Source: Nocardioides exalbidus (GTDB lineage: Bacteria; Actinomycetota; Actinomycetes; Propionibacteriales; Nocardioidaceae). Taken from it: DNA of 64,000 nucleotides. How positions within the stretch are numbered: position 1 is the stretch's first letter; every line of letters starts with the position of its first letter. The stretch spans positions 2,604,001 to 2,668,000 of the forward strand of contig NZ_FNRT01000002.1 of NCBI RefSeq assembly GCF_900105585.1, in the 5' to 3' direction. Shown here one piece after another: positions 46,142-55,510 of the stretch. Made by a program: the position numbers and the translations under genes. Below the pieces are notes generated by a model that did no database searches, had not been told where the DNA came from, and saw nothing but the letters and a program-made list of their open reading frames with translations.

Positions 46142-47001
46142 ACGACCCGCGCGACCTGCTCGCCGAGCACTGGGGCCTGACGGCGCCGCGCGTGCGGTCG
46201 CTCGACGGCGGCATGAACTCGACAACCTGGCTGGTCGAGCACGACGGCACTGCCTACGTCGCCAAGCACGTCCCGCCCGGCGGCGTCGACGCGCTGCTGG
46301 CCGGCTCCGAGGTCGCCCGGACCCTCGCCGACGCCGGGTTCACCACGGGTCGTCCGGTGGCCGCCCGCGACGGACGCCTCGTCGTGACCGAGGCTGGCCT
46401 GGCCCTGCTCGAGCACGTGCCCGGCCGCGAGCTCGAGGGCGACTCCGAGGACGAGCAGGAGTGGATCGCCCGGGTGCTGGCCGGGGTGCACGCGACGGAC
46501 GCGGCACCCGGCCCCGCGACCTCGGTCTTCGCGACCGACTGGCTCGACCCGCACGCTCCCGGGGTCGGCGAGCACGACTGGCTGGTCACCGCGATCGCCC
46601 ACGTCCGCGAGGAGACCGACCCGCTCGCGCTGACCTGGTCGGTGCTGCACACCGACCCGGCGCCCGAGGCGTTCGTCCACGACGACGCGACAGGTGTCAC
46701 CGGGCTGATCGACTGGGCGGGCGCCCGGCGCGGCCCGGTGCTCTACGACGTCGCCTCGGCAGTGATGTACCTCGGCGGACGGGCGCGCGCGTCGGCCTTC
46801 CTGGCGGCGTACGCCGACCGCGGCCCGCTGGCGGCCGACGAGCTGCGGCAGCTCGACGCGTTCAGCCGGCTGCGGGAGGCGGTCCAGGGCGTCTACTTCG
46901 CGGGTCGCCTCGCCACCGACGACCGGACGGGCGGCGTGGAGGTCGCGGACAACCAGCGGGGGCTCGACGACGCACGTCGCCGGCTGGCCGGGCTCGGCTA
47001 G
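46138..47001 (+). CDS. Aminoglycoside phosphotransferase (APH)-fold protein
   Basis: A 287-residue kinase-like protein. It has the ATP-site Lys in 'AYVAKHVPP' (about residue 41), a catalytic-loop equivalent 'VLHTDPAPEAFVHDD' near 172 and the metal Asp in 'GLIDWAGARRGPVLYD' near 195. The loop has His and Asp but Glu where the HxDxxxxN motif has Asn, so full activity is not certain. Substrates in this superfamily range from aminoglycosides to sugars, choline and homoserine. It is coupled to an oxidoreductase, so a metabolic role is more likely than drug resistance. Confidence 0.82.
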   Translation: MNDPRDLLAEHWGLTAPRVRSLDGGMNSTTWLVEHDGTAYVAKHVPPGGVDALLAGSEVARTLADAGFTTGRPVAARDGRLVVTEAGLALLEHVPGRELEGDSEDEQEWIARVLAGVHATDAAPGPATSVFATDWLDPHAPGVGEHDWLVTAIAHVREETDPLALTWSVLHTDPAPEAFVHDDATGVTGLIDWAGARRGPVLYDVASAVMYLGGRARASAFLAAYADRGPLAADELRQLDAFSRLREAVQGVYFAGRLATDDRTGGVEVADNQRGLDDARRRLAGLG

Positions 47002-47426
47002 CGCCCGCGCTTGCGCCACTCGATCGCGGGGCAGGTGTTCATCACCATCGGCACGCCCGCCGCGATCGTGCGCTCGAACGCCTCGGGGTCGACGACGCCG
47101 AGCTGGAACCAGACCCCGCCCGCGCCGATCTCCACCGCCTGGTCGGCGAACTCGCCGGCGGCCGAGGAGCGCCGGAAGACGTCGACGACGTCGATCGGGA
47201 AGGGCACCTCAGCGAGGGTGGCGTAGCCCTGCTCGCCGTGCACGGTCGCGGCCGAGGGGTGGATCGGGACGATCTGCTTGCCGCGGTCCTGCAGCAGCTT
47301 CGCGATCGACCACGCCGTGCGCTCGGGGTTGTCGGAGAGTCCGACGACGGCCCAGGTCTGCCCCTCGTCGAGCATCCGCTCGATGCTCGCGGGGTCCTGC
47401 CAGCTGAGCCGCTCCGACGTGGTCAC
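46998..47426 (-). CDS. CoA-binding domain protein (YccU-like)
   Basis: A 142-residue single-domain CoA-binding Rossmann protein with 'WAVVGLSDNPERTAWSIAKLLQDRG' parts at residues 25-48, 'IVPIHPSAATVHGEQGY' near 53 and 'GVWFQLGVVDPEAFERTIAAG' near 105, ending 'MNTCPAIEW'. This order is typical of the YccU family, which resembles the CoA-binding module of succinyl-CoA synthetase but lacks catalytic parts. It overlaps the upstream TetR gene by ATGA. Confidence 0.88.
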   Translation of the reverse strand: MTTSERLSWQDPASIERMLDEGQTWAVVGLSDNPERTAWSIAKLLQDRGKQIVPIHPSAATVHGEQGYATLAEVPFPIDVVDVFRRSSAAGEFADQAVEIGAGGVWFQLGVVDPEAFERTIAAGVPMVMNTCPAIEWRKRGR

Positions 47427-48115
47427 GCCTCATCGTAGGACGGTGTCGCGTCCGCGACGACCTCCCGCAGGGCGGGCAGCAGCCTCTCCACCGGCACGTC
47501 GCTGCGCAGCACGACGACCGCGGTGTCGCCGGAGGGCCGGGACGCACGGAAGACCTCCTCCATCGCGACGGCGAACTCGGCCTCGGCCTGCTCGGCGGTG
47601 ATGGTCCCGCGCAGCCAGCGCCGCAGCACGTGGTTGTGCGCGGTCACGACGGCGTTGGCGAGCAGCTCGGCACGGAGATCGCCGATCAGGTCCGGCCGGT
47701 CGCCGTCGCCCGTCCACTGGTCCAGGAAGGTGCGGAAGAGCCGCTGGTACTGCAGCAGCCCGGCCGTCTCGCGGCTGCGGAGCGCGGGCACGTTGCGGGC
47801 GAGGCGGTAGCGCTGCTGCGCGCGGGCGCCCTCGGCGACGTAGTGCGCGAGGACCAGGTGCGCCGCCTCGGTCACCGCGACCTCGACCGTCGCGGAGGTG
47901 GCGGTCGCCAGTCGCGCGGAGACCGCGCCGAGCATGGCGTCGTGGTCGGGGAAGATCACGTCCTCCTTGGACCGGAAGGCCCGGAAGAACGTGGTGCGCC
48001 CGACCTCGGCCCGCGCCGCGACGTCGTCGACGGTCGTCTCGTCGAAGCCGCGCTCCTCGAAGAGCGCGAAGGCCGCGTCGATGAGCCGGTCGCGGGTGCT
48101 GGTCACGGGGGACAT
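47423..48115 (-). CDS. TetR/AcrR family regulator of the beta-oxidation pair
   Basis: About 230 residues. The ATG at 48115 is preferred: TACCAT lies 7 nt upstream, and the longer start at 48139 would put the palindromic operator inside the coding region. The HTH lies at about residues 8-52 ('ETTVDDVAARAEVGRTTFFRAFRSKEDV' in pieces). It is divergent from a 3-hydroxyacyl-CoA dehydrogenase/acyl-CoA dehydrogenase operon. An ACTCAGT motif overlaps both -10 elements, so it probably represses both directions and responds to an acyl-CoA. Confidence 0.88.
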   Translation of the reverse strand: MSPVTSTRDRLIDAAFALFEERGFDETTVDDVAARAEVGRTTFFRAFRSKEDVIFPDHDAMLGAVSARLATATSATVEVAVTEAAHLVLAHYVAEGARAQQRYRLARNVPALRSRETAGLLQYQRLFRTFLDQWTGDGDRPDLIGDLRAELLANAVVTAHNHVLRRWLRGTITAEQAEAEFAVAMEEVFRASRPSGDTAVVVLRSDVPVERLLPALREVVADATPSYDEA

Positions 48116-48123
48116 GGTGGCGA

Positions 48124-48155
48124 TGGTACTCAGTACCACATCACGTACACTCAGT
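48124..48155. promoter_or_regulatory. Double TetR operator with overlapping divergent -10 elements
   Basis: TGGTACT-C-AGTACCA (48124-48138) is a perfect odd palindrome. Its ACTCAGT core recurs exactly 21 bp away (48149-48155), two helical turns on the same face. The minus-strand TACCAT (48123-48128) and plus-strand TACACT (48146-48151) are the apparent -10 elements of tetR and the dehydrogenase operon, and both overlap the motif. Confidence 0.65.
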
Positions 48156-48159
48156 TTCC

Positions 48160-49014
48160 ATGAGTGCTGGAGTGCAGGACGTCGGTGTGGTCGGGTGCGG
48201 ACTGATGGGTGCGGGCATCGCGGAGGTGACGGCGCGCGCCGGCCTCGACGTGGTCGTCGCCGAGTCGTCCGAGGCGGCCGCTGACGCGGGCCGGGCGCGT
48301 CTCGAGCAGTCGCTCACGCGTGCCGAGTCGAAGGGCAAGATCGAGTCCGCAGCCGCCGTGCTGGAGCGGATCCGCGTCGTCACCGACCTCGGCGAGCTGG
48401 CCGACCGCGACCTCGTGGTCGAGGCGATCGTCGAGGACGAGTCGGCCAAGACCGACCTCTTCGCCCGGCTCGACGAGATCGTCACCTCGCCCGACGCCAT
48501 CCTCGCCTCCAACACCTCCTCGATCCCGATCATGAAGCTCGGCGTGGTCACCTCCCGCCCGGCCCAGGTCATCGGCGTGCACTTCTTCAACCCCGTGCCG
48601 GTGCTGCCGCTGGTCGAGCTGGTGCCGAGCCTGCTGACCTCGGCGGAGACCACGGCTCGCGCCCGCGACTTCGTCGAGACCTCGCTCGGCAAGCAGGCGA
48701 TCGACAGCCAGGACCGCGCGGGCTTCGTGGTCAACGCGCTGCTCATCCCGTTCGTGCTCTCGGCGATCCGGATGCTCGAGTCGGGCTTCGCCACCGCCGA
48801 GGACATCGACCGCGGCCTCGTGCTGGGCGCCGCCCACCCGCAGGGTCCGCTCGCGCTCGCCGACCTGATCGGCCTCGACACGACCAAGGCCGTCGCGGAG
48901 TCGCTCTACGAGGAGTTCAAGGAGCCGCTCTACGCCGCCCCGCCGCTGCTCAACCGGATGGTCGACGCCGGCCTCCTCGGCCGCAAGACCGGCCGCGGCT
49001 TCTACACCTACTGA
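48160..49014 (+). CDS. 3-hydroxybutyryl-CoA / 3-hydroxyacyl-CoA dehydrogenase
   Basis: A 284-residue NAD(P)-dependent dehydrogenase. It has 'VVGCGLMGAGIAEV' at residues 9-22, 'SNTSSIPI' near 120, the catalytic His region 'GVHFFNPVPVLPLVELV' parts near 137, and a C-terminal helical domain with 'HPQGPLALADLIGLD', ending 'GRGFYTY'. This is the FadB2/Hbd type that interconverts acetoacetyl-CoA and 3-hydroxybutyryl-CoA. An acyl-CoA dehydrogenase follows 24 bp downstream and a TetR repressor gene is divergent. Confidence 0.92.
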   Translation: MSAGVQDVGVVGCGLMGAGIAEVTARAGLDVVVAESSEAAADAGRARLEQSLTRAESKGKIESAAAVLERIRVVTDLGELADRDLVVEAIVEDESAKTDLFARLDEIVTSPDAILASNTSSIPIMKLGVVTSRPAQVIGVHFFNPVPVLPLVELVPSLLTSAETTARARDFVETSLGKQAIDSQDRAGFVVNALLIPFVLSAIRMLESGFATAEDIDRGLVLGAAHPQGPLALADLIGLDTTKAVAESLYEEFKEPLYAAPPLLNRMVDAGLLGRKTGRGFYTY

Positions 49015-49038: not shown

Positions 49039-50211
49039 ATGAACGAGTTCCCGATGTATGCCCTCTCCGAGGAGCACCAGGCCATCCGCGAGGCGGTCCG
49101 CGCCGTCGCCGACGCGAAGATCGCGCCCCACGCGGCCGAGGTCGACGAGGAGGCCCGCTACCCGCACGAGGCCGCGGCGGCCCTGCTCGCGTCCGACTTC
49201 CACGCCCCGCACGTGCCGGAGCAGTACGGCGGTGCCGGTGCCGACGCGCTCGCCACCGTGCTGGTGATCGAGGAGGTCGCGCGCGCGTGCGTGTCGTCGT
49301 CCCTGATCCCGGCGGTCAACAAGCTCGGCTCGCTCCCGGTGCAGATCGCCGGCTCGGAGGAGCTCAAGCAGAAGTACCTCGGCGCGCTGGCCCGCGGCGA
49401 GGGCGGCTTCTCGTACTGCCTCTCCGAGCCCGACGCGGGCTCCGACGCGGGCGGAATGAAGACCCGTGCGGTGCGCGACGGCGACCACTGGGTGCTCGAC
49501 GGCGTGAAGCGCTGGATCACCAACGCGGGGGAGTCGGAGTTCTACACCGTCATGGCCGTGACCGACGACGAGAAGAAGACGCGCGGCGGTGTCTCGGCCT
49601 TCGTGGTCGAGAAGTCCGACGAGGGCGTCTCCTTCGGCGCCCCGGAGAAGAAGCTCGGCATCAAGGGCTCGCCGACGCGCGAGGTCTACCTCGACAAGGT
49701 CCGCATCCCCGCCGACCGGATGATCGGCGAGGAGGGCACCGGCTTCACCACCGCCATGAAGACCCTCGACCACACCCGCGTCACCATCGCCGCGCAGGCC
49801 GTCGGCGTCGCCCAGGGGGCGCTCGACCACGCCCTCGACTACGCCAAGGGGCGGGAGCAGTTCGGCACGTCGATCGCCGACTTCCAGGGCCTGCAGTTCA
49901 TGCTCGCCGACATGGGCATGAAGGTCGAGGCCGCACGCCAGATGACCTACGCCGCCGCCGGCCGCTCCGAGCGCGGCGACGACGACCTCACCTTCTTCGG
50001 CGCCGCCGCGAAGTGCTTCGCCTCCGACGTCGCCATGGAGGTCACCGTCAACGCCGTGCAGGTCCTCGGCGGCTACGGCTACACCCGCGACTACCCGGTC
50101 GAGCGGATGATGCGCGACGCCAAGATCACCCAGATCTACGAGGGCACCAACCAGGTCCAGCGGATCGTGATGGCGCGCCAGCTCCTCGCCGGGGTGCAGT
50201 CCGAGCTCTGA
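49039..50211 (+). CDS. Acyl-CoA dehydrogenase
   Basis: A 390-residue FAD enzyme. The ATG at 49039 has AGGAG 9 nt upstream. Features are '[17 protein letters not shown]' at the N-terminus, '[14 protein letters not shown]' near residue 130, '[21 protein letters not shown]' parts near 340 and '[11 protein letters not shown]', with the catalytic Glu in 'YEGT' as in short/medium-chain enzymes. It forms an operon with the 3-hydroxyacyl-CoA dehydrogenase, so a short- or branched-chain beta-oxidation role is likely. Confidence 0.93.
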
Positions 50212-55488: not shown

Positions 55489-55510
55489 TACTGAGTATGC
55501 ATACTCCGTA
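55489..55510. promoter_or_regulatory. PadR operator candidate, 22-bp palindrome
   Basis: TAC-n-GAGTATGCATACTC-n-GTA is symmetric except for one pair. The inner 14 bp (55493-55506) are perfect. It ends 3 bp before the padR ATG, overlapping a CATACT -10-like hexamer. This is the expected site for PadR autorepression. Confidence 0.65.

Follow-up and report, generated by a model that had tools for sequence, protein, structure and literature searches.

The 44-nt gap between the start codons of tetR and hbd, two divergent genes in a 64,000-nt stretch of the Nocardioides exalbidus genome (hereafter called the window), very probably forms a two-dimer TetR operator whose sites are two helical turns apart. 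In the proposed mechanism, one TetR dimer would bind a perfect palindrome and recruit a second dimer to a weaker, degenerate palindrome (Table 1). As the centers of the two palindromes are separated by 21 bp, corresponding to two helical turns, both dimers are expected on the same face of the DNA and would probably bind cooperatively. They would cover the start region of tetR and, on the side of the hbd-acd operon, both the -10 element and the start, and TetR would repress its own gene as well as the operon until a pathway intermediate, most likely an acyl-CoA thioester, releases it. Taken as a whole, this reading (a cooperative two-dimer operator that represses tetR and hbd-acd and is released by acyl-CoA) is highly likely to be correct, judging from sequence comparison, and we infer each of the binding, the cooperativity, the repression, the ligand, and the leaderless hbd start. 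The idea of a paired operator is strongly supported by the related loci, and the idea of leaderless transcription is supported for hbd alone. A divergent TetR repressor that acts through two operators is a well-known general scheme, and the locus provides a further example of it. For a TetR lineage that is common in Nocardioides and also occurs in relatives, it supplies a promoter layout, an operator, and a predicted target; the lineage seems to govern steps in the breakdown of acyl-CoA.

Table 1. Genes, candidate promoter elements, and operator sites of the tetR-hbd locus (positions in the window)
Feature	Position	Strand	Remark
Small CoA-binding-domain protein gene (PF13380)	46998..47426	-	overlaps the tetR 3' end
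tetR, 230-aa TetR-family regulator	47423..48115	-	predicted binder of the paired operator
Candidate -10 TACCAT of the tetR promoter	48123..48128	-	doubtful
Operator site 1, perfect odd palindrome TGGTACTCAGTACCA, center 48131	48124..48138		13/13 to consensus
Spacer between sites 1 and 2	48139..48145		in relatives conserved mainly at -10 positions
Candidate -10 TACACT of the hbd promoter	48146..48151	+	start predicted to be leaderless; lacks a Shine-Dalgarno sequence
Operator site 2, weaker palindrome, center 48152	48146..48158		8/13 to consensus
hbd, 3-hydroxybutyryl/3-hydroxyacyl-CoA dehydrogenase	48160..49014	+	NF005875/PRK07819 subfamily
acd, acyl-CoA dehydrogenase	49039..50211	+	next after hbd, 24-nt gap

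The hbd product scores 471.7 bits against the NF005875/PRK07819 model (cut-off 319), and the acd product matches the Pfam families Acyl-CoA_dh_1, _N, and _M. The tetR gene, whose closest named matches are found in Nocardioides hwasunensis and N. currus, lies nearer to its divergent neighbor than the 200 bp that serve as a criterion for TetR-family autorepressors. TetR-family genes at less than this distance are reported to repress the divergent neighbor in most cases (PMC3511530). The small gene that overlaps the 3' end of tetR is probably co-transcribed with it. A CoA-binding-domain-like gene follows tetR in 16 of the 58 loci with enough downstream sequence (a set that includes distant relatives and one duplicate), and in 13 of these it does so within 102 nt.

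The first-pass annotation had described a perfect palindrome and a second ACTCAGT core exactly 21 bp apart, and the coordinates confirm this arrangement (48124-48138 for the palindrome and 48149-48155 for the core of site 2). Its placement of TACCAT 7 nt before the tetR ATG and of TACACT 8 nt before the hbd ATG, each overlapping a core, likewise proved correct. When up to three mismatches were allowed, the 15-mer TGGTACTCAGTACCA was matched twice in the window (one place, read on both strands) against 0.18 matches expected, and the core pair at 21 bp was matched once with up to two mismatches against 0.35 expected. ACTCAGT alone was found three times with 3.85 expected, and it was therefore rejected as an enriched window-wide motif. 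The third of these copies is part of TACTGAGTATGCATACTCCGTA (55489-55510), directly before the ATG (55514, + strand) of a gene for a PadR-family protein (55.7 bits to Pfam PadR), and TACTGAGTATGCATACTCCGTA looks like that PadR regulator's own site.

The exact core pair is found a single time in the genome (4.6 Mb). The next best pair carries two mismatches, and the idea that the genome contains a larger regulon was rejected, as there was no second pair with fewer than two. Among the matches listed, two single-site genome matches (L044 and L047) are both located inside open frames. Relaxed core pairs (up to three mismatches) showed no excess in the genome, with 86 forward matches compared with 89 for the reversed-pattern control. 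As relaxed pairs are thus no commoner than in the control, the pair in this single genome would be no more than suggestive; it is the comparison across related loci that argues against chance.

An orthologue of tetR (E ≤ 1e-30) is present in 101 of 215 genomes of the same genus. In total, 123 same-genus tetR loci were read (39 from searches and 84 more), and in 100 of them a divergent hbd or acd gene lies within 260 bp. These 100 loci were scanned for the distance between the best and the second-best match to the operator consensus GGTACTSAGTACC (13 scored positions), with no spacing assumed. The distance was uniquely 21 bp in 84 loci and tied with 21 bp in eight more (L010, L070, L089, L094, L098, L115, L129, and L137); it was 22 bp in six (L011, L110, L142, L143, L148, and L165) and neither in L079 and L119. 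In 100 sets of dinucleotide shuffles, a mean of 2.4 loci and a maximum of 8.1 had 21 bp, and no distance ever exceeded 8.3. In a forced choice between 21 and 22 bp, 93 loci fit the former and seven the latter, including L119 with its poor second site. Since the consensus had been picked after viewing 16 loci, a control with scrambled palindromes of the same arm letters was run, which placed at most 45 of the 100 loci at one distance and reached mean best scores of at most 9.0, compared with 11.95 for the real consensus. These locus counts are not independent, as the loci share ancestry; in a tree of 160 proteins, the spacing state requires at least six changes among 113 labelled rows. The earlier proposal of two operators on one DNA face thus gains support from a spacing of 21 bp kept uniquely in 84 of the 100 loci and as a tie in eight others.

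In the 93 loci that fit 21 bp (60 effective clusters), conservation is concentrated in both palindromes with their next arm letters, and further conserved columns are the TA at -9/-8 of site 2. No column further out in this footprint rises above about 0.3 bits. On the tetR side, a T situated outside the palindrome, 11 nt from the center of site 1, is also conserved (weight 0.62, 0.89 bits, 93 loci).

The hexamer TANNNT occurs at -9 from the center of site 2 on the hbd/acd strand in 52 of the 93 loci, compared with a background mean of 1.1 per offset; spacer shuffles gave a mean of 5.8 and a maximum of 14. As the TA of this hexamer falls outside the 13-bp operator, it represents largely independent evidence for a -10 element overlapping site 2, and this part of the first-pass annotation is supported for the hbd/acd operon. 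TACACT, the hexamer of the window and of L062 and L063 (its two nearest relatives), is placed at -6 from the center of site 2, 3 nt further on.

It had also been claimed that both promoters are leaderless, with both -10 elements overlapping operators. We consider this combined claim possible, if rather doubtful: its hbd half is supported for the window, L062, and L063, and its tetR half is questionable. The window has no Shine-Dalgarno sequence before either gene, and both TACCAT and TACACT recur in L062. The hbd start looks leaderless in the window, as its sequence combines a -10 hexamer 6-8 nt before the start with the lack of a Shine-Dalgarno sequence, and TACACT is also found 8 and 7 nt before the ATG in L062 and L063, respectively. 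However, these three are the only leaderless-like hbd/acd starts among the 100 loci, of which 71 have a Shine-Dalgarno sequence, 25 have neither, and one has no start found. By the same simple rules, which make start-codon and Shine-Dalgarno calls approximate, the tetR start has a Shine-Dalgarno sequence at one candidate start in 50 of the 100 loci and is leaderless-like in 35, neither in nine, and not found in six. The presence of TACCAT says little about a tetR promoter since the hexamer is made of the conserved arm of the operator; its standing as an independent -10 element is accordingly weakened, and L063, the second-nearest relative, lacks it and carries AGGA ahead of tetR. Furthermore, a GTG at 48139, upstream of the tetR ATG (48115), opens the same frame, and a simple sigma-70 consensus scan of both strands from 48050 to 48230 returned no promoter. 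On the tetR strand, TANNNT is found at +14 from site 1 in 25 of the 93 loci (e.g., TAGGGT of L012).

The fixed spacing may also be read in another way, namely as two independent operators, one per promoter, that are bound by dimers without contact and stand 21 bp apart because the divergent promoters are close. With 13-15 bp, either site is by itself a complete palindrome of the usual TetR size, the mycobacterial repressor BkaR binds its motif as a dimer and has two such motifs in its divergent promoter (PMC3920632), and the stronger of the two sites switches side from locus to locus, all of which would suit independent sites. Their spacing should, however, drift with intergenic length, and it remains at 21 bp, or at 20 or 22 bp in sister groups, while the distance from the hbd/acd start to the estimated tetR start ranges from 43 to 214 nt. 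Cooperativity is suggested precisely by this spacing being fixed in gaps of such widely varying length. In addition, one site of at least 12/13 is paired with one of at most 10/13 in 61 of the 100 loci, as would be expected if the second dimer were recruited, and we consider independent operators unlikely. A chance palindrome, or the site of another regulator such as the PadR-family protein with the same core before its gene, is far more improbable still. The core is indeed no commoner than chance in the window, and one copy directly precedes the PadR-family gene, yet the pair travels with the tetR lineage through many genomes in which most flanking positions diverge. The cooperative two-dimer operator is thus the reading that we prefer. 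Its two-turn spacing persists where most flanking positions have changed, and small insertions would put cooperativity between the dimers to a direct test.

The tetR product has the features of the TetR family, i.e., a TetR_N helix-turn-helix (57.6 bits, Pfam cut-off 24) and, in the AlphaFold model (mean pLDDT 92), an all-helical C-terminal domain. For residues 2-195 of the model, alignment with a TetR-family structure gave Z 17.5. The best structure matches (2dg7, 2rae, and the MftR structure 8x0a) have Z scores between 17.5 and 16.9, with 180-183 residues aligned at 3.3-3.5 Å, and are to be seen as tied, as they lie within 1 Z of each other; for two of them, the values are Z 17.4 over 182 residues at 3.5 Å (2rae) and Z 16.9 over 180 residues at 3.3 Å (8x0a). 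In the helix-turn-helix, R40, F44, and R45 are invariant in all 45 aligned orthologues, which are a chosen subset of the loci. Residues 209-223 (47447-47491) are modelled as an extra helix outside the structure-compared part, and a VVVLRT...LPxLR-like C-terminal end is common to many of the TetR orthologues. This region could be a dimer-dimer contact.

MftR, the mycofactocin regulator, binds long-chain acyl-CoAs and requires His68 for the binding of oleoyl-CoA (PMC8728441). Its NCBIfam model (TIGR03968) is the nearest named one for the TetR protein, and membership was rejected as the score of 77.5 bits is far below the cut-off of 224.9. In the alignment to 2rae, read by eye, the His68 column corresponds to Met61 here and is occupied by L, V, M, or I in every one of the 45 orthologues, so that homology does not establish an acyl-CoA ligand. 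Given the target genes and such structural neighbors as MftR and FadR, an acyl-CoA inducer is nevertheless a sensible guess.

Among known systems, the divergent promoter of Tn10 TetR/tetO contains a pair of operators; a dimer binds to each, both directions are shut, and tetracycline is the effector. The sequence and spacing of tetO differ from those of the operator pair described here. In QacR-type operators, two dimers occupy one operator region and share one palindrome, whereas two complete palindromes are present here 21 bp apart. QacR was reported to bind its 28-bp palindrome as a tetramer (PMC4482099). MftR protects a single 27-bp region with the palindrome T-N2-GGCA-N5-TGCC-N2-A, as opposed to the paired palindromes found here. 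A similar scheme is that of BkaR (Rv2506 / MSMEG_4718), a mycobacterial TetR repressor of branched-chain keto-acid genes. As here, its tetR gene is divergent beside acyl-CoA metabolism genes, and two intergenic palindromes are conserved across species. BkaR represses itself and the neighboring operon, and one of the two probes was bound more weakly (PMC3920632). The target operon in Mycobacterium smegmatis is accD1-bkdC, compared with hbd-acd here, and GTTA(N)T(N4)A(N)TAAC takes the place of GGTACTSAGTACC as the core of the operator, with no mention of a fixed spacing in the passages cited (PMC3920632); a search of the full 44-nt gap did not find the BkaR operator, and GGTACTCAGTACC is there instead. 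Two further regulators, AccR of Streptomyces avermitilis and PccD of Saccharopolyspora erythraea, are covered in PMC11596240. A search of the open-access literature found no paper that combines GTACTGAGTAC with TetR, and by title none on this TetR lineage or locus, including TetR with hbd/acd or leaderless transcription in Nocardioides.

The pair extends beyond the genus. Of 20 hbd/acd-linked loci from other genera (divergent, within 260 bp, three duplicates left out), 15 are best at 21 bp, with ties resolved towards 21. A 21-bp pair is lacking in L181, which has 30 bp, and in the Microtetraspora loci L192-L195, three of which have 22 bp with weak second sites and one 44 bp. In three acd-linked loci that are more distant (L215, L219, and L221), the spacing is 20 bp. 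No convincing pair was found in the distant relatives L196-L201, L203, L204, L206-L208, L210, L212-L214, L216-L218, and L220; L216-L218 and L220 have no hbd/acd/accD matches.

Within the lineage, 27 further loci were treated as paralogues, 23 from the same genus without hbd/acd beside tetR and four from other genera. An acyl-CoA carboxylase gene starts 54-100 nt from tetR in 17 of the 27, including L145, L174, and L177 (called by the Carboxyl_trans domain in L145 and by similarity to the L145 gene in the others). With the strict consensus, the best pair is at 20 bp in 13 of 23 paralogues. With a looser consensus, which was shaped on the paralogue loci themselves, 20 bp comes out as the sole best distance in 23 of the 27 and as a tie in L155 and L166; in L132 and L161 it is not best even then. 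The carboxylase paralogues keep an ACTSAGT core with altered outer arms, and several genomes carry both the 20-bp and the 21-bp kinds. The groups with 20, 21, and 22 bp represent natural spacing variants. It may even be that dimer spacing itself is a specificity code within one regulator lineage, with 21 bp (22 bp in one set) for the hbd/acd branch and 20 bp for the carboxylase paralogues. If so, spacing and arm letters would bar paralogous acyl-CoA regulons from cross-talk through dimer-dimer contacts. We regard such a code as improbable; against a simple version of it, the three distant acd-linked loci mentioned above are also at 20 bp. Pairs resembling GGCACTSAGTGCC, spaced by 22 or 23 bp, occur in the Streptomyces-type loci L202, L205, and L209. 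In L202 (979-1863 and the upstream gap), a distant tetR relative is divergent from a gene with an electron transfer flavoprotein domain, and the gap between them holds GGCACTCAGTGCC-like sites 22 bp apart.
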